DNA of 45,821 nucleotides from Hyphomicrobiales bacterium (GTDB lineage Bacteria > Pseudomonadota > Alphaproteobacteria > Rhizobiales > JACESI01): contig JBDWKL010000032.1 of assembly GCA_039973685.1 (NCBI GenBank), positions 1 to 45,821 of the forward strand, in the 5' to 3' direction. Position numbers and translations under genes: made by a program. The stretch's first letter is position 1. Each line of letters begins with the position of its first letter. Of the stretch, positions 14,941 through 45,821 are shown one piece after another. The notes below the pieces were generated by a model, which had not been told where the DNA came from, searched no databases, and worked only from the letters and a program-made list of their open reading frames with translations.

Positions 14941-15150
14941 TCACTCACCCATCTCCAAAATCTTCACCATCGCCTCATAGCCCCGCGAATTCGCAAGGTC
15001 CAACGGCGTTCTGGCAAACTTATCTGCGAGCGTTTTGCTTGCACCTGCGTTTACCAGTGCTTGGGCTGTTTTTTGGTGATTTTCGCCACCATCACCCAGC
15101 ACCACGCTTTCAATCAGCGCTGTCCAGTGAAGGTTGTTGACGTGTTCGGG
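14941..15150 (-). pseudogene. Truncated copy of the 3' end of the downstream ankyrin gene
   Basis: Positions 14953-15149 match 15681-15877, the last coding part of the ankyrin gene, at roughly 90% by eye without gaps. The copy stays open on the - strand and would read EHVNNLHWTALIESVVLGDG and onward to a TGA at 14941-14943, but it lacks the signal peptide, the first ankyrin repeats and any start codon. Homology ends within a few bases of the stop codon. Upstream on the same strand it runs directly into the end of the 93-aa orphan gene, in the same frame after that gene's stop. It is best read as a displaced gene end. Confidence 0.85.
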
Positions 15151-15183
15151 CCTCGAATGAGTTAATAAGATGGTTTCTGCGCA

Positions 15184-15674: not shown

Positions 15675-16376
15675 TTATTCCTCCAAAATCTTCACCATTG
15701 CCTCATACCCCCGAGACTTCGCAAGGTCTAACGGGGTTCTTCCAAACTGATCTGCGAGCGTTTTGCTTGCGCCTGCGTCTACCAATGCTTGGGCCGTCTT
15801 TTGGTGGTCTTCGCCGCCATCACCCAGCACCACGCTTTCAATCAGCGCTGTCCAGTGGAGGTTGTTGACGTGGTCGAGCGGTGCGCCTGCTTTTATCAAA
15901 GTTTGCACCACCTCAAAATGCCCGAGGTGGGCCGCGGCGATGAGGGCTGTGCCGTCGTAAACGCTGGTGACGTTGGTTGATTTATTGCCAAGCTCTAGCG
16001 CCACTTTCATGGTTTCAAGATCATCGGCTACAGCGGCGATTGTGACGACGTCATAAACATCAATTTCTAGCGCGTTCATATCGGCACCCGCTTTTGCAAG
16101 GCTGCGCATGATGGCGCGGTTGCCAGCGTATCCTGCAATGTGAAAGGCGGTTCGATCACGGCGATCAGTTTGTTCGAGATCAGCACCGGCTTTGATGAGT
16201 TTTTCAAGCTCCGCCACATTGCCTTCGTGGGCTGCTTTTAACAAACCCTCGTAAGCGGCGATTTCTTTTGGCCTTGGTGCAATTTGTGCTTGGCTTGAAA
16301 GGGGTGACAAAATCACCCCAATCATTGTTGCAAAAGCGATTGCCAGAAATTGGATATTTCTATTGGCAAGCTTCAT
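15675..16376 (-). CDS. Secreted ankyrin-repeat protein
   Basis: The 233-aa protein begins with a Sec-type signal peptide (charged start, hydrophobic core, SSQAQ cleavage region near residue 30) and then has about five ankyrin repeats; GTALIAAAHLGHFEVVQTLIKAGA and FGRTPLDLAKSRGYEAMVKIL are the clearest. Ankyrin repeats mediate protein contacts; a periplasmic location is inferred from the signal. Its ATG overlaps the cysK stop (TAATG), so it is probably translated by coupling with cysK. Periplasmic ankyrin proteins next to redox or oxidative-stress genes are known in Proteobacteria, but no specific partner can be read here. Its 3' end is duplicated downstream. Confidence 0.88.
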   Translation of the reverse strand: MKLANRNIQFLAIAFATMIGVILSPLSSQAQIAPRPKEIAAYEGLLKAAHEGNVAELEKLIKAGADLEQTDRRDRTAFHIAGYAGNRAIMRSLAKAGADMNALEIDVYDVVTIAAVADDLETMKVALELGNKSTNVTSVYDGTALIAAAHLGHFEVVQTLIKAGAPLDHVNNLHWTALIESVVLGDGGEDHQKTAQALVDAGASKTLADQFGRTPLDLAKSRGYEAMVKILEE

Positions 16377-37420: not shown

Positions 37421-39427
37421 ATGTCACAAAATCTTCGGTCAATACTTGTTTTATTCGTTTTCGTTTCTTCTTTTCTTTCCCATCAATCCGTACTGGCCAG
37501 TGAATCCGCTCTTTTGTCTCTCTTTGAGCAGCTTGAAAAGCGCGGCATTGTGGTCTCTCACTCCAATTTGCAGGGAGCTGGTGATAGCGCAACGTTTGAT
37601 GAGATCAAGCTTTCAAGCGGTAAAGATAATGCGCCGCAATTTGTCTTCTCATCCGGCACTGTGACCAAGGCTAAAGCCAGCGCTGGTGTTGGTTTAGACG
37701 GAGAGGGTTTTACTGCTAAAAAGTTGCGTATTGTCAGCGGTGACCAATCTATCGCGTTTACAAATTTCCAAGTCCAAGACTTCTCGTTTCCTCATATGGA
37801 AATTCTTTTGGACGCGCCTGTTGAAACCGACCCATTGATCAAACAAGCAGATCCATTGGGTGTGCTAAATGGGGCGTTTTATAAATTTGTGGCTGGTGCA
37901 AGTTTCTCTCTTTTTGGCGTGGATAGCACGGAGACCCTTGTGCATGTCGACGAGGTAAAAGCTAATGTTTCTACTGGCCCCTTGGCTTTGGAACAGATGC
38001 AAGATGGCAAGCTTGCTAGCTACGCGATTAACAACGTTGAATACAAAGTCGAAGGGGTGCAGGGGCAGGACGTTTCCTTTTCAATCGAGAAGATCCTTGT
38101 CGCTGATTACAATCTCAAAACCCTTGCCCATGTCTTAGATAACGACAATTACAAAGACGGCAAAGGCGATGGTGTGTGGCTTGAGGCTGTAGGTGTTGGC
38201 ACGGCAACCAATATGGAAATGTTGATCGACGGTAGCACCGTTAAAATTGCGAAAATCACCAATGGTGTTTCTCGTTTGCGCCAGCTGGATATTTCGCCAC
38301 TTGAAGCGATGAAAGCAATGCAGGGCGTGGCTCAAGCGCAGCAAACGGATAATAACCGGGTTGAATTATTCCGCGAGTTTTTCCCCGCGTTATCATCTCT
38401 TTACCGCATGATGGAGATTGATGAAATGCGACTGGAAGGCATGGTCGTCTCTCCTCCAAAACCAGCAGTGCCATTTGAACTTGGTACTATTTTAATTGAT
38501 CGATTTTCTGTGGATCAAGGGCTGAAGGAAGTCAGCATTGCAGACCTAGCCTTCACTGACAAAAATGGGATGTCTGTCAATCTTGGTCGATTTGCGCTTG
38601 GCGATATTCAGTTTCCAGCCCTTGTCGACATTATGGCATATCTTGAAAGCCTCAGCGGTGATACCGCCCCTGAACTGAATTATGCCGCTGTTGCATCTCT
38701 TTCGCCGACACTTGGTGAGATCGATGTGAAAAATTTCGACGCGGTTTTCGGTAACGACAATCATCTCAATATTGAAGGCGCAACACTGAGTGCTTCCAAT
38801 TACATTGGCTTGGTGCCGACCAAATTATCCTTGAAGCTCGACAATGTGAATGTGCCGCTTGCTGGCTTGTCGCGCTCTAATGGCGTCGCCGAAGTTTTGT
38901 TCAAGATGGGGTATAAGAAAGCCGTGTTGAACGGAACCATCGATATGGCGTGGACGGAAGCGACAAAAGAACTTGAAATTTTGCCAAGCCAAATACGCAT
39001 CAATGACTTGGGTGTTTTGAACCTGTCAGCGAAGATGGGCAATGTGCCGCGACAATTTATTGAAGACCCGCAAGATGGTGCTGCTTTGGCGCTTGGTGCG
39101 ACCTTTAAGGAAGTCGAGATTTCTTTCGAAGATCAATCATTCACCAACCGTTTTGTTGAAAAGACAGCCAAAGAATCTGGCGGCGACGCTGCAACGGTAC
39201 GCCAACAATTCAGCGCCATTGCAAAAGGACCGCTTGCCATTTTTCAAAGGCCAGAATTTGCTGAAATGGTGGGAACGGCCGTTGATAATTTTCTCGCAAA
39301 TCCAGGCAAGATCACGGTGACCGCAAAACCTTCGGAGCCTATTGCTCTTGTTGGATTTGCAGTGATGGCTCAACAAGCACCAGGCAACGTTATCGATGCT
39401 TTGAATATTAAAGTATCAGGTCCGTAG
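37421..39427 (+). CDS. Large exported protein of unknown function
   Basis: I do not recognise a named family. The 668-aa protein starts with a Sec signal peptide (hydrophobic core LRSILVLFVFVSSFLS, cleavage after VLA near residue 26) and has no further membrane helix, so a periplasmic or outer-membrane-facing location is expected. The rest alternates short hydrophobic strands with polar turns, rich in Asp/Gly/Leu/Val, reminiscent of AsmA-like beta-rich envelope proteins, with repeated LXXLSPLEAM-like and IXIXGA patterns but no catalytic motif. AGGA precedes the ATG. It is divergent from the antiporter gene, 117 bases away. AT content and codon use match the neighbours, so it looks native. Confidence 0.8.
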   Translation: MSQNLRSILVLFVFVSSFLSHQSVLASESALLSLFEQLEKRGIVVSHSNLQGAGDSATFDEIKLSSGKDNAPQFVFSSGTVTKAKASAGVGLDGEGFTAKKLRIVSGDQSIAFTNFQVQDFSFPHMEILLDAPVETDPLIKQADPLGVLNGAFYKFVAGASFSLFGVDSTETLVHVDEVKANVSTGPLALEQMQDGKLASYAINNVEYKVEGVQGQDVSFSIEKILVADYNLKTLAHVLDNDNYKDGKGDGVWLEAVGVGTATNMEMLIDGSTVKIAKITNGVSRLRQLDISPLEAMKAMQGVAQAQQTDNNRVELFREFFPALSSLYRMMEIDEMRLEGMVVSPPKPAVPFELGTILIDRFSVDQGLKEVSIADLAFTDKNGMSVNLGRFALGDIQFPALVDIMAYLESLSGDTAPELNYAAVASLSPTLGEIDVKNFDAVFGNDNHLNIEGATLSASNYIGLVPTKLSLKLDNVNVPLAGLSRSNGVAEVLFKMGYKKAVLNGTIDMAWTEATKELEILPSQIRINDLGVLNLSAKMGNVPRQFIEDPQDGAALALGATFKEVEISFEDQSFTNRFVEKTAKESGGDAATVRQQFSAIAKGPLAIFQRPEFAEMVGTAVDNFLANPGKITVTAKPSEPIALVGFAVMAQQAPGNVIDALNIKVSGP

Positions 39428-40079: not shown

Positions 40080-40448
40080 TTAAATCCGGTCACTCACATG
40101 GTTCTTGCCATCGGTGACCGGAACATCTTTTTGCGCATAAGGATCAACGCCCTCAATACAGGCAATGTTAATGCCGTAGGTGTTGGGGTGTGATCGGCGC
40201 TGGTGGTGGGTGTAGATGCCGCAGGTCTTGCAAAAATAATGCTTCGCCGTGTTGGTGCGAAATTGATAAAGACTTAGATTATCCGCACCCTTCACGACCG
40301 TAAGGTCTTCAAGCGGCACAGTCGCCGCGATGGTGCCTCTGCGCGAACACATAGAACAATCACACCGCCGCATATCAACAAGACCATTTGGAAGGTTGAG
40401 CGCCAGTTCAACAGCGCCGCAATGGCAGGTGGATTTGTGGGTGGTCAT
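40080..40448 (-). CDS. GFA-family zinc protein (CENP-V/Gfa-like)
   Basis: The 122-aa protein has the zinc-ligand pattern of the glutathione-dependent formaldehyde-activating (GFA) fold: CHCG near residues 8-11, RRCDCSMCSRRG near 28-39, and FCKTCGIYTHHQ near 72-83. Such proteins bind zinc through these cysteines; the name comes from Gfa of Paracoccus, but most members have no proven activity and a glutathione role should not be assumed. The size fits a minimal member. No strong ribosome-binding site is visible. It is convergent with the 170-aa gene. Confidence 0.88.
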   Translation of the reverse strand: MTTHKSTCHCGAVELALNLPNGLVDMRRCDCSMCSRRGTIAATVPLEDLTVVKGADNLSLYQFRTNTAKHYFCKTCGIYTHHQRRSHPNTYGINIACIEGVDPYAQKDVPVTDGKNHVSDRI

Positions 40449-40706: not shown

Positions 40707-41204
40707 ATGTTTGGCTTTATCAAGAAACAGCGACCAAATATTTTTTTGGGAAAAATTGGTGTCAACGAAGATAACTTGCTTATGCAAGGTCTCGAAAGAA
40801 CCCTTTTCTTGTCGCGAGAACGGAAGGCTGAGCTTATAGAAGGCGCACTTCGTAAAATTATTACCTTCCCGCCAGTGCCGTCTGATGACTTACTGAGAGA
40901 AGATGATCTCATTTTAGATATCATCGTCACTAAATTCAGTATTGGTCATTTTTTGACATTTGGTTTTATTCCAATGGGTGGTAGAGCGAATGTCGTTCTT
41001 TCGGGGCATCTTTATAAAGCGCATTCGTGTGTCAGTGTGCCCGCCATAACTGTAATGTATAAATCTAGGTGGTTTGACTTTTTACTCGGACCTGTCCGAT
41101 TGAGTTATTCTTTTTGGTCCGCAAAAAGTGAAAACTATGGAATTGATAAACTAGTTGGTCATGCGGCTTTGAAGCTGTTGTCAAAGATTTCCAAGGTAAC
41201 GTAG
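40707..41204 (+). CDS. Orphan protein of unknown function (165 aa)
   Basis: Not recognised. The ATG at 40707 is chosen because AGGA lies 7 bases upstream; an upstream in-frame start would add 49 residues that run through the palindromic repeat and look non-coding. The protein begins MFGFIKKQRPNIFLGKIGV, has a mixed Leu/Arg/Glu middle, and a hydrophobic stretch (FSIGHFLTFGFIPMGGRANVVLSG) that may be one or two beta strands or a membrane-contact segment. AT-rich codon use suggests transfer. It lies just before the displaced uvrD end, on the opposite strand. Confidence 0.55.
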   Translation: MFGFIKKQRPNIFLGKIGVNEDNLLMQGLERTLFLSRERKAELIEGALRKIITFPPVPSDDLLREDDLILDIIVTKFSIGHFLTFGFIPMGGRANVVLSGHLYKAHSCVSVPAITVMYKSRWFDFLLGPVRLSYSFWSAKSENYGIDKLVGHAALKLLSKISKVT

Positions 41205-41209
41205 TTTCT

Positions 41210-41475
41210 TTAAAGCCGCTCCCCAAAGCTATCCAACACCCTTTTCTGCCCCACCTTTTCAAAATCAATCGGTCAGCGTGTTGCCGTCAATGCGTGCCAT
41301 TGTGCCATAGGTGAATTTGATGTGGAAGGTGCGCTTGCCAGTTGTATAATCTGACTTCATCGCCGTCACCGTTTTGGCGATCAGTTCGCCGTCGGTGAAT
41401 TTGGGGCCGCCTTTTTCTTTTGGCGGCTGGGTAACCGCCGATTTTCTTGAAATCGGCGGTTATGTTTCGTGGGTG
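41210..41475 (-). pseudogene. Truncated, frameshifted copy of the uvrD 3' end
   Basis: This stretch matches the last 260 or so bases of the uvrD gene (43639 to about 43905) at roughly 80% by eye. On the - strand it would read GGPKFTDGELIAKTVTAMKS and, close to the end, IDGNTLT; then an extra base (G near 41271) shifts the frame, after which IDFEKVGQKRVLDSFGERL follows in another frame to the matching TAA at 41210-41212. The helicase motifs are absent. Homology stops at the stop codon, as in the ankyrin remnant. It is a displaced gene end, not a working gene. Confidence 0.85.
41432..41462. other. Perfect 13-bp hairpin after the chemoreceptor gene
   Basis: TAACCGCCGATTT (41432-41444) and AAATCGGCGGTTA (41450-41462) are exact reverse complements around a 5-base loop, 30 bases beyond the chemoreceptor stop codon. 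No T-run follows on the - strand. The corresponding uvrD sequence is similar but far less symmetric, so the symmetry arose in this copy. It could end or stabilise the chemoreceptor transcript. Confidence 0.6.
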
Positions 41476-41491
41476 TCGGTTATCGTCGCGG

Positions 41492-43246
41492 CTATGCGAC
41501 TTTAACTGAAGATAGGAATTGGTTGATTTCGTCACGCAAACTTTGCGATTCTGCGTTCAACTGTTTTACGGCACCTAGAACTTCGGTTGCTGACTTACCA
41601 GTTTCATCTGCTGCTGACGTAACCCCATCCATGGTAGTTGAGATTTCTTGCGTGCTTTCAGAAACTTGCAAAACATTGATGTTTATTTCGTCAATAGCGA
41701 GGCCTTGCTGTTCAACCGCAACTGATATGGTTTCAATCGCTTCGTTTGTATTCGAGATCCGATCGACGATGACTTCAATAGCGCCTGCAGTTTTCTGTGT
41801 GTTTTCCTGCATGGACATTATTTGACCAGTGATTTGCTCTGTTGCTGTAGCCGTTTGATTTGCGAGCTGTTTTACTTCTGAAGCAACAACTGCGAAACCT
41901 TTGCCGGCGTCGCCTGCACGGGCCGCTTCAATCGTCGCGTTAAGAGCAAGCAAATTGGTTTGCTCAGTGATGTTGGAAATTAATTCTACGACTTCGTAAA
42001 TCTTCTGAGCGTTATCTACCATCACTGTCGTCTCGGTTTGTACTTCTTGTACTTCGGACACGGCTTCTTGCGTGACAGTCGTTGCACGATCGATTTGTGA
42101 TCTGATTTCTCTGGTTGAAGCGGTGAGCTCTTCAACAGCCGAGCTAACAGATTGTGCATTGCTTGATGCTCTATCCGTCATGAACTGAATTTGTTCACTC
42201 TGGCTTTGCGTTTGTTGTGACGTGCTGGACATCGTTTCTGCTGTGCCATTTAGTTGTTGGGCAGCGCCAGCGACAGAGGTCAATATGTCACCCACTTGTT
42301 CATCAAAGTTATTGTTTAAATCTTCAATTTTGCCAGCGCGGATCATGGTTTCTTGGTTTGCTTCGTTCACGGCTTTTTCAAGCTCTGTATTCTCAACGAG
42401 CTTAAGACGGAAACCTTCTAAACCTCTAAGCATGGTGCCAATTTCATCTTTAGACTCAGTAACAACCTCTTCATTGATGCGCCCAATAGTTAGACGCTCG
42501 ATTGTCTGCATGGTGTATTTCAATGGCTTTAGTATTGAAGTTTGAACCATGTAGAGTGAAAAAATGGTAATTGCTAACATCGATGACAAAGATACAACAA
42601 TGAGCCAGAACTCGGTTTGATGTTCATGCTCTGATGCTCTTTGGGTCGCCTCCAATGTGAAGGAGGTTACTTCTGCGAGAGCTTTTTGGATTTCATGATC
42701 AAGGTGTTCAGCCTCAGCATCAATTTTTTCGCCGATTTTTATTGTGGCTTCAAGATTGTCAGAAGCGAGTGATTTTATTAGGTCTTTAACATGAGTTTCG
42801 AATTCATCATGCTCGTGTTCAATTGTCTTTAGAAGCGTTAGAAGATTTGTAAACTTCTGTTCAATTTTCTCATCATTGGCATGAGAGATAATAGACTCTG
42901 CAAGTTTCTCGGAAGCAATAAGCTCTTGTTTCACGATCTCACCATGGGTGAAAAACTTCTTTTTAGCTTTTTCAAAGTGAGAAGGCTCGAGCTTAAACAG
43001 CTGCGCTTCGGCTGTGTACTTCAACATCCGTTCAAGTTGGATGGTTTGTTCAAGCTGACTTGTTGTTGCTCTACTGAGTTTAGCTGTGAACGGGATGTCT
43101 TCTTCCGCAACAGCGGTAAGTTCAACACCGATTGCCTTGACTTGAGTGTAGGAAAACAGTGCCACTATGCACAATGCCAATAAGCCTGCACCGACGTTCA
43201 GGTAAATTTTGGTACCAAGACCAATTTTTGAAAGATATTTAGCCAC
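41492..43246 (-). CDS. Methyl-accepting chemotaxis protein
   Basis: This 584-aa chemoreceptor has a first membrane helix (about 14-34), a periplasmic helical-bundle sensing domain rich in Glu, His and Lys (about 35-212), a second helix (about 213-238), a HAMP linker (about 238-290), and a cytoplasmic signalling domain whose hairpin tip is [33 protein letters not shown]. Heptad Glu/Gln pairs fit methylation sites. The periplasmic EHEHDEF and EHLDHEI segments are unusually rich in His and Glu. It starts with GTG, after AAGGGG. No chemotaxis genes are adjacent; it lies between uvrD and the displaced uvrD end. The ligand is unknown. Confidence 0.95.
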
Positions 43247-43638
43247 GATAGCCCCTTTTCGTTTCGGGAGGACACCACCACAGTGCTTTTTCCCGACTTC
43301 TTAAGCAGTCAATTCAACGACCTAGCTGATAAAAAAATGTACGCAATTTTGTGATTTCTCAATTACAGAATTGCATTAATTTGGTTAATGAATAGATAAA
43401 GCCTACTCTCAAGGAAGTACTATAAAGCAATAAATATTAAGTTTTTATATAGTAGTCACGGCAATTTTTGTAAATTTATACTAAAAATTGTAAAGTAAAA
43501 ATTTTTGATGTATTTGAAATAAGTTTGAGTATTAATTTTAAATTATTGGCAGTTTTTTTCGTTTGCGGGCGTAGACAGTTGGAATTTGATGGTTCTTTAT
43601 TTTTTACCATCCAACCAACCAGAAAACGGGCAAAAAAC
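43247..43638. other. AT-rich non-coding spacer between uvrD and the chemoreceptor gene
   Basis: About 390 bases with no gene. The part near the chemoreceptor holds its ribosome-binding site and presumably its promoter. An inverted repeat CAATTTTT (43462-43469) and AAAAATTG (43483-43490) flanks a TAAATTTA core and could be an operator. A pair TTAA-N5-TTAA near 43380 falls short of the CtrA spacing. The whole stretch is much more AT-rich than uvrD. Confidence 0.5.
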
Positions 43639-45821
43639 TTAATGCCGCTCTACAAAGCTATCGAGCACTCTTTTCTGCCCTGCTTTTTCAAAATCAATCG
43701 TCAATTTGTTGCCATCAATGCTTGCGACCGTGCCGTAGCCGAATTTTAGGTGGAAGACGCGTTCACCCGTTTTGTAGTCTGACTTCTTCTCCGTCACCGT
43801 TTTGGCGACGAGTTGGCCGTCGATGAATTTGGGGCCGCCTTTTTTCTTTTGGCCGCGATAACCGCCGGTTTCTTCAAAGTCCGCTTTCTTGTTGCGTTGG
43901 GCGCGTTTCCAGCCGGGGGTAGCGTAGGTGTTTTGGAAAGGGTCACGCAAGTCGAAGCGGGAATTGCCGTATTGCCCGCCAGAAGAACCCGCACCATAGC
44001 CGCCATAAGATTGGCCGCTTTCGACGATCTCCACATGGGCTTCTGGTAGTTCATCCAAGAAGCGCGACGGGATTGAGGATTGCCAAAGGCCGTGAATGCG
44101 ACGGTTGGAGGTGAACCAGATTTTCGCCCGCTTTTTCGCCCGTGTCACACCCACATAAGCAAGGCGGCGTTCTTCTTCCAAGCCCGCTCGCCCACTTTCA
44201 TCAAGTGCGCGTTGATGGGGGAAGAGGCCTTCTTCCCAACCAGGCAAAAACACCGTGTCAAATTCCAAACCCTTGGCAGAGTGCAATGTCATAATCGAGA
44301 CTGCATCAAGCGCTTCTTTGTTGTCGCGGTCCATAACCAGTGAGATGTGTTCCAAGAAGCCGTCCATGGTCTCGAAATCTTCCATGGAGCGGATAAGCTC
44401 TTTCAAGTTTTCAAGGCGGCCCGGTGCTTCGGCAGAGCGGTCGTTTTGCAGCATTTCGGTATAGCCGCTTTCATCCAAGATGATTTCGGCAAGCTCGGTA
44501 TGGGGCAGAGTTTCTAGTTGCTGGCTCCAGCGGGAAAACGTCTCCATCAACCCGCGCAAAGTTTTACGCTGCTTGGGCTTTAGCTCTTCCGTCTCAATGA
44601 GGTCCATCACCGCACGCATCATCGGCACACCACTGGCGCGTGCCGTGTCGCGGATCAGCAGGATGGTTGCATCACCAAGGCCGCGCTTTGGTTTGTTGAC
44701 GATGCGCTCAAAGGCGAGGTCGTGGGCAGGCTGAACCACACAGCGGAAATAGGCGAGCGCATCGCGAATTTCCATGCGCTCATAAAATCGAGGGCCACCA
44801 ATGACGCGGTAATCAAGGCCAAGCTTGATGAAGCGTTCTTCAAACTCACGCATTTGGAAAGAGGCGCGAATGAGGATGGCGATGTTATTGAGCGGATGGT
44901 TTTGGCGTTGGAGCTGTTCGATCTCTTCACCGATAGAGCGGGCTTCTTCTTCGCTGTCCCATGCAGAGGCCACATAGACCTTCTCTTCGTCGTCGCCTGC
45001 TTGGTCGGTAAACAGGGTTTTGCCAAGACGGTCTTCGTTGTGGCTGATCAGGTGTGAGGCGGCAGCGAGGATGTGGCTTGTAGAGCGATAGTTGCGTTCC
45101 AGCTTAATCACCTTCGCGCCGGAGAAGTCCTTTTCAAAGCGCAGAATGTTATCCACCTCAGCACCGCGCCAACCATAGATCGATTGGTCGTCATCCCCCA
45201 CACAACAAATGTTTGCGCCACCTTGGGCAAGCAGTCGAAGCCACATATATTGTGAGATGTTGGTATCTTGGTACTCGTCCACGAGGATATATTGGAAGCG
45301 GCGTTGATAGTCGGCCAGCACATCGGGGTTTTCTTTAAAGAGTCGCAGGCATTCCATAAGGAGGTCGCCAAAGTCGCAGGCGTTTAGTGTTTTGAGACGC
45401 TCTTGATATTGCTCATAAAGCTTGCGCCCTTTGCCGTTGCCAAATGCGCGGGCGTCACCCTCTGGCAGCATAGAAGGGGACAAGCCTTTGTTCTTCCAGC
45501 CATCCATTTGGTTGGCGAACTGGCGGGCAGGCCAGCGCTTGCTGTCGATGTTTTCAGCTTCGATCAATTGCTTGATCAGGCGAATTTGGTCGTCTGTATC
45601 AAGGATTGAGAAATTAGACTTGAGGCCGACAAGTTCGGCATGGCGGCGCAGTATCTTCACGCAGATAGAGTGGAACGTGCCAAGCCATTGCATGCCTTCC
45701 ACAGTGTCGCCAATCATCGACCCAATGCGGTCTTTCATTTCGCGGGCGGCTTTGTTGGTGAAGGTGACAGCCAGAATTTGATAGGGCGATGCCTTGCCCG
45801 TTGCCAGAATGTGGCCAATGC
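43639..45821 (-). CDS. uvrD: DNA helicase UvrD/PcrA, 5' end outside the window
   Basis: This superfamily 1A 3'-5' helicase acts in excision and mismatch repair and at stalled forks. The visible 727 residues start inside motif Ia territory (QILAVTFTNKAAREM) and include motif II LVDEYQDTN, III GDDDQSIYGWRGA, IV LERNYRST, V MTLHSAKGLEFDTVFLPGWEEG and VI RLAYVGVTRAKKR. The C-terminal part has a Gly/Tyr/Ser-rich linker (SGQSYGGYGAGSSGGQYG) and a small basic domain ending DSFVERH. The N-terminal Walker A is off the window because the frame is open through the right edge. UvrD versus PcrA naming is a matter of convention. Confidence 0.95.
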   Translation of the reverse strand, partial: IGHILATGKASPYQILAVTFTNKAAREMKDRIGSMIGDTVEGMQWLGTFHSICVKILRRHAELVGLKSNFSILDTDDQIRLIKQLIEAENIDSKRWPARQFANQMDGWKNKGLSPSMLPEGDARAFGNGKGRKLYEQYQERLKTLNACDFGDLLMECLRLFKENPDVLADYQRRFQYILVDEYQDTNISQYMWLRLLAQGGANICCVGDDDQSIYGWRGAEVDNILRFEKDFSGAKVIKLERNYRSTSHILAAASHLISHNEDRLGKTLFTDQAGDDEEKVYVASAWDSEEEARSIGEEIEQLQRQNHPLNNIAILIRASFQMREFEERFIKLGLDYRVIGGPRFYERMEIRDALAYFRCVVQPAHDLAFERIVNKPKRGLGDATILLIRDTARASGVPMMRAVMDLIETEELKPKQRKTLRGLMETFSRWSQQLETLPHTELAEIILDESGYTEMLQNDRSAEAPGRLENLKELIRSMEDFETMDGFLEHISLVMDRDNKEALDAVSIMTLHSAKGLEFDTVFLPGWEEGLFPHQRALDESGRAGLEEERRLAYVGVTRAKKRAKIWFTSNRRIHGLWQSSIPSRFLDELPEAHVEIVESGQSYGGYGAGSSGGQYGNSRFDLRDPFQNTYATPGWKRAQRNKKADFEETGGYRGQKKKGGPKFIDGQLVAKTVTEKKSDYKTGERVFHLKFGYGTVASIDGNKLTIDFEKAGQKRVLDSFVERH

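Follow-up and report, generated by a model that had tools for sequence, protein, structure and literature searches.

In the genome of a Hyphomicrobiales bacterium (GCA_039973685.1), the helicase gene uvrD is followed on its own strand by an AT-rich spacer, an orphan gene for a methyl-accepting chemotaxis protein (MCP), and then a second, frameshifted copy of the uvrD 3' end that has decayed as non-coding DNA. We read this arrangement as an old insertion scar that needed no dedicated element and arose through recombination within uvrD, a single crossover being the simplest route; we assign this reading a probability of roughly 0.55. The locus itself belongs to ordinary genome dynamics, and it looks like an ordinary old recombination scar and not a new type of element. 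Its wider value is that the decay pattern of the leftover fragment can type a single-gene insertion behind a core gene: a codon-position test tells the replacement of a gene end by a foreign one from the duplication of the gene's own end, two histories that are alike by eye.

The window, i.e., the whole stretch of DNA analysed here, is the complete 45,821-bp contig C32 (JBDWKL010000032.1) of this genome (G000), and its features around the end of uvrD are collected in Table 1. The order given in a preliminary description of this DNA, namely uvrD, then the spacer and the chemoreceptor gene, then the copy of the uvrD 3' end, is borne out on the minus strand. The same description called uvrD intact, which stands insofar as the gene looks whole, but its frame runs off the end of the contig; the first ~112 residues are located on another contig (C54:3-371), so that uvrD is probably whole across the contig gap that splits it. 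On the other side, the stop codon of the pseudo-copy lies 5 bp from that of an unknown convergent gene, with the GFA-family gene beyond. The convergent gene has neither a Pfam match nor a match near uvrD in three relatives of the same genus, and a search of the genome with the AT-rich spacer recovered only the spacer itself and nothing else at E ≤ 0.1.

Table 1. Features at the uvrD end of contig C32 (positions in the window).
Feature	Position	Strand	Basis or remark
uvrD (UvrD/PcrA-type helicase), 3' part, 726 codons	43639..45819	-	Pfam UvrD-helicase and UvrD_C; weak tudor match below its cut-off
Duplicated uvrD 3' end, intact version	43639..43900	-	Alignments; upper border approximate
Spacer, AT-rich, 392 bp, 31.6% GC	43247..43638	.	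From uvrD stop to MCP start
Orphan MCP gene, 584 aa, open frame, same strand as uvrD	41492..43246	-	
Pseudo-copy of uvrD 3' end, frameshifted	41210..41473	-	81% over 244 bp; homology up to the stop codon
Perfect 13-bp hairpin with 5-nt loop, within the pseudo-copy	41432..41462	.	Possible terminator from dead uvrD sequence
Unknown gene, 165 aa from ATG, convergent	40707..41204	+	Listed ORF begins at GTG 40560
GFA-family gene, the resident downstream neighbour	40080..40448	-	Behind uvrD also in G003; 42-residue piece in G001

The duplication of the uvrD end is far above chance. A search of the genome against itself matched 41205-41500 to 43639-43878 at 81% identity (E 5.7e-58) and found no third copy. 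The alignment extends from the common stop codon (41210 versus 43639) up to 41473 versus 43900, a span of ~264 bp, so that the earlier estimate of a roughly 80% similar copy of the last 260 bases holds up well. Its top lies only ~20 bp from the stop codon of the MCP gene. The uppermost 33 bp of the homology, above the word CGGCGGTTA starting at 41440, are weakly similar yet outscore 2000 of 2000 shuffles; shorter pieces of 13, 20 and 27 bp reach only 0.03, 0.008 and 0.013 in the same kind of test, and the upper border of the copy is therefore approximate. The lower border is sharp, as had also been noticed: the alignment begins at the stop codon, and no similarity was found beyond the two stop codons, where the 100-bp and 300-bp flanks are equalled by 366/500 and 272/500 shuffles, respectively. 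Two details of the preliminary description need adjustment. The cargo of 2.4 kb corresponds to the start-to-start spacing of the copies (2.43 kb), whereas the DNA between them measures 2.17 kb (41474-43638). The frame-breaking extra base is there (a C at 41272), but it is not the sole indel, since gaps of 1-2 bases occur between 41416 and 41453; when read through, the copy contains two TGA codons.

The three other genomes of the genus that served for comparison (G001, G002 and G003) have neither an MCP gene nor a second uvrD end behind uvrD. G001 has an aquaporin-family (MIP) gene followed by a 42-residue GFA piece, and G003 has a tautomerase-family gene followed by GFA; in G002, the next shared gene comes directly after uvrD with no gene before it. 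A homolog of the gene at 37421-39427 is reached downstream in all three, and PrmA comes next in G002 and G003, the stretch of G001 being too short to show it. Judging from these neighbourhoods, the chemoreceptor and the duplicated end are a derived insertion, as the preliminary description had proposed, and an adjacency of MCP and uvrD throughout the family was not seen. In a wider set of 73 named uvrD loci, 66 of them with at least 3 kb of downstream sequence, an MCP match lies downstream of uvrD only in L014 and L015, 4.2-4.4 kb off and past other genes. A second match to the uvrD end turned up in a single one of these loci, L072 of Oribacterium, where the main match ends at residue 160 and we take the second for the remainder of that gene. 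In genome searches, G055 gave a further partial match, which belongs to a small ORF of its own (111 aa), and the double matches in G022, G028, G030 and G050 are each taken for one gene found in two pieces.

The inserted gene codes for a protein with an MCPsignal domain (PF00015, E 4.4e-31) and a weak HAMP match below its cut-off, and it is 62% identical at the amino acid level to an ortholog of equal length in G001. It is AT-rich for this genome: among 334 sampled ORFs, its GC content (43%) falls at the 1st percentile, its GC3 at the 7th and its codon score at the 11th, a composition that fits an accessory gene. The preliminary description took the lack of chemotaxis neighbours as a further sign of cargo. 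This argument loses its force here, since 17 of the 18 MCP places in the genome are not within 10 kb of CheW-domain matches, which are confined to C5:62690-64422 (CheW being the one partner family searched for), so that orphan receptors are the rule in this organism. When the sensor part was searched in 297 genomes of the order, 33 gave a match at E ≤ 1e-15, the best one outside the genus at 38% identity; a viral_contigs search with the MCP gave 17 pattern matches and no relatives. On the other side of uvrD, ~0.6 kb upstream (L171 946-2031, G000:C54), there is a gene for a protoglobin-MCP (globin-coupled sensor), so that chemoreceptor genes flank uvrD on both sides. Among the 73 named loci, an MCP match upstream of uvrD occurs in six (L011, L012, L013, L020, L024 and L037; mostly Roseibium/Labrenzia). 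A second variable single-gene slot is found at the ilvB-ilvH locus, where a 198-aa gene and an EamA gene flank it (L123 4515-6269; L172 6913-7524; L175; L176); its occupant is the MCP ortholog in G001 and a GFA gene in G000, and in G002 and G003 the slot is empty.

In the mechanism that we favour, the incoming DNA would have carried the chemoreceptor gene and, with it, part of a uvrD 3' end that differed hardly at all from that of the host. Circularisation of this fragment and a single crossover between it and the chromosomal uvrD would be the simplest way in, the alternative being some other one-step insertion with duplication of the target end. The gene would thereby keep a complete 3' end and have the chemoreceptor behind it, and the final ~264 bp of the old uvrD would be stranded beyond the insert, beside the resident neighbours; this remnant would have been dead almost from the beginning and would have decayed neutrally since. 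The presence of the duplicated segment on both sides of non-homologous DNA is as in single-crossover insertion, and so is the empty site at uvrD in the three genus relatives. The insert carries one gene only, and no integrase or transposase family was found among the 38 larger window proteins in Pfam searches (thresholds of E 1e-3, in part 1e-5 and in part 1e-10). We further infer that the donor was of the same or a very close species and already had the MCP gene beside uvrD; such a state, uvrD with the MCP but no copy, is seen in none of the three genus relatives and in none of the 73 named uvrD loci. A nearly identical donor should also share the DNA after the stop codon, and the end of homology at the stop therefore requires either a different downstream region in the donor or a chance breakpoint.

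The closest precedent comes from Escherichia coli, where 56 of 60 recombinants obtained with lacZ-end DNA gave a PCR product of an end duplication, and 14 sequenced duplications of 109-950 bp were attributed to single crossovers of circular DNA (PMC3240628). There too, an end segment of a few hundred bp, comparable to the ~264 bp seen here, was duplicated around inserted DNA; the lacZ case was, however, made in the laboratory from plasmid DNA, whereas the uvrD case is old, decayed and reconstructed from its remains. As presented in the same report, the usual product of homology-facilitated illegitimate recombination (HFIR) is a deletion, with a joint of 3-10 bp microhomology (PMC3240628). The uvrD locus instead shows a duplication, so the HFIR variant of the mechanism fits less well; its joint is blurred. 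A 9-bp shared word at 41432-41440 lies inside the copy and not at its border. An HFIR-like process has also been proposed for displaced parts of resident genes in Vibrio cholerae, where orphan immunity genes of the type VI secretion system (T6SS) are explained by an upstream-anchored insertion that likewise shifts the resident part downstream (PMC5361080). By that account, the shifted V. cholerae genes originate in different strains and persist as genes, in contrast to the dead fragment at uvrD. A limited search of the literature on orphan chemoreceptors, partial duplications and gene-end islands yielded nothing closer than these two studies and two others considered below (PMC8409611 and PMC8794818).

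An unlikely but serious alternative is a segmental tandem duplication followed by deletion, in which an ancestor had the MCP gene ~17 kb upstream of uvrD and in the same orientation, the segment from the one to the other was duplicated, and most of the second copy was then lost. The ortholog in G001, which is the closest relative of the inserted gene, indeed sits at C4:50617-52365, 17 kb upstream of uvrD (ORF start ~C4:69542) and likewise in the same orientation; most of the gene order of this block is also found on C54 of G000. Duplication of such a block with subsequent deletion would give the same order and also ends that were near-identical at birth. The corresponding slot, however, is empty in G002 and G003 and holds the GFA gene in G000, with no MCP remnant found there, so that the MCP in that position may be a private insertion of G001. 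The scheme also needs at least three steps, and two single-gene trees leave the branching order within the genus unresolved.

The preliminary description had itself proposed that a gene-end-targeted mobile element or import swapped in its own diverged uvrD end and pushed the native one downstream. The termination of homology at the stop codon would be expected of an element that restores the end of its target gene, and the AT-rich composition of the MCP gene points in the same direction. In a tree of both 3' ends with those of relatives, however, the intact end and the copy pair with each other (support 91/88, which is moderate and just under the tool's mark of 95; deeper forks are weak), with branch lengths of 0.23 for the copy and 0.059 for the intact end. 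The intact end is also not anomalous beside its relatives: over codons 641-720 of 726, it has 68-75% amino acid identity to the three genus relatives, which are 65-70% identical to one another, and by this comparison it does not look chimeric.

The codon positions bear on the same question. The 50 differences between the intact end and the copy fall as 13/14/23 on positions 1/2/3, and we polarised them by the majority of four outgroups. At positions 1 and 2, where there are 27 differences, the majority sides with the intact end in 23, with the copy in three, and is tied in one; at position 3, the score is 8:8 with seven ties. The change per site along the copy is 0.146 at positions 1 and 2 versus 0.143 at position 3 (difference -0.003, 95% range -0.086 to 0.086 by codon bootstrap), and along the intact end 0.022 versus 0.141 (difference 0.119, 0.049 to 0.197). 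The copy has lost coding constraint and decayed as non-coding DNA. The best fit to these values is that it was unconstrained for the whole time since the separation and that the two ends were nearly identical at the event, although the polarisation relies on 50 differences and much-changed third positions, and a constrained phase of up to ~0.09 of the 0.14 per site would stay within the 95% range. A diverged foreign end should have brought an excess of third-position changes; the even change of the copy over codon positions, together with an intact end that does not look chimeric, argues against such a replacement, and with the absence of an integrase among the 38 window proteins we regard it as improbable. 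Integrase-borne islands of the SGI1 type, as reported for trmE (PMC8409611), likewise insert at the 3' end of a gene; unlike them, the uvrD locus has no integrase that we could find, no long island and no sign of constrained divergence.

We hold it to be very improbable that the whole of uvrD was duplicated in tandem with the MCP gene in between and that the 5' part of the second copy was then lost. Such a history would lead to the same end product and is compatible with the neutral decay of the remnant, but no clear uvrD sequence extends upstream of ~41473, the MCP stop codon follows within 20 bp, and a search of 61 genomes with the C-terminal 153 aa revealed no case of two full uvrD copies. 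An artefact of assembly or binning is extremely improbable even for a complete contig from an assembly of 55 contigs with an estimated contamination of 2.89%, because the two copies are 19% different and hence not one repeat assembled twice, and because the far side of the copy runs into GFA and further genes that are found behind uvrD in G003.

The insertion, as we reconstruct it, may have had a later consequence in the dead end itself, which contains a perfect hairpin that starts 29 bp past the MCP stop. In 486 kb, there are 22 hairpins with a perfect stem of at least 11 bp and a loop of 3-8 nt, 16 of which, this one included, lie ≤60 bp after a gene end, so that it may end the MCP transcript; no run of T follows it on the receptor's strand. 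Folding of 40 nt gives -19.1 kcal/mol for the copy against -4.7 for the same place in the intact uvrD (weak). We also considered that the hairpin could be the MCP gene's own terminator, sharing CGGCGGTTA with uvrD at a microhomology joint, but the uvrD homology runs through it to ~41473, which indicates that it arose inside the copy. A dead gene end may in this way have been turned into a terminator, with template switching as a conceivable cause; this is guesswork from a single sequence. Template switching has been described as a process that makes and maintains RNA hairpins, likewise with a long perfect stem where the homolog folds weakly (PMC8794818); in contrast to the hairpins of that report, the uvrD-copy stem is seen in a single sequence and the mechanism is a guess.

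The window contains another partial duplication of a gene end. An ankyrin-repeat gene (15675-16376) has its 3' end repeated downstream over 199 bp (14953-15151, 90% identity); the homology breaks off shortly before the stop codon, and the sequences that follow are unrelated to each other. The preliminary description saw in uvrD the same order over again. The codon positions give opposite patterns, with 4/2/14 differences between the ankyrin copies as against 13/14/23 at uvrD: the ankyrin ends diverged while both were coding, which suggests an allele that diverged under coding constraint, so that two loci alike by eye have different histories. A 93-aa ORF with no Pfam match lies between the ankyrin gene and the copy of its end.

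We consider highly improbable a general process that would embrace both loci, in which this lineage would gain single accessory genes independently of an integrase, anchored at gene 3' ends and breaking at stop codons, as at uvrD and the ankyrin gene, after which the dead end would be remodelled, template switching being one possible way, into a hairpin that serves the new gene as a terminator. In a sample of 446 kb including the window (~14% of the genome), the last 400 bp of each of 410 ORFs were searched for copies within 8 kb at E ≤ 1e-5, and only uvrD and the ankyrin gene had a partial 3'-end copy; the other matches are read as tandem paralogs and one near-full-length duplicate. Within these limits, the sample does not suggest that gene ends are frequently duplicated. 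It contains a 125-codon ORF with a 79% identical, near-full-length copy 1.3 kb away (L165 223-609 and 1900-2277, on G000:C25).
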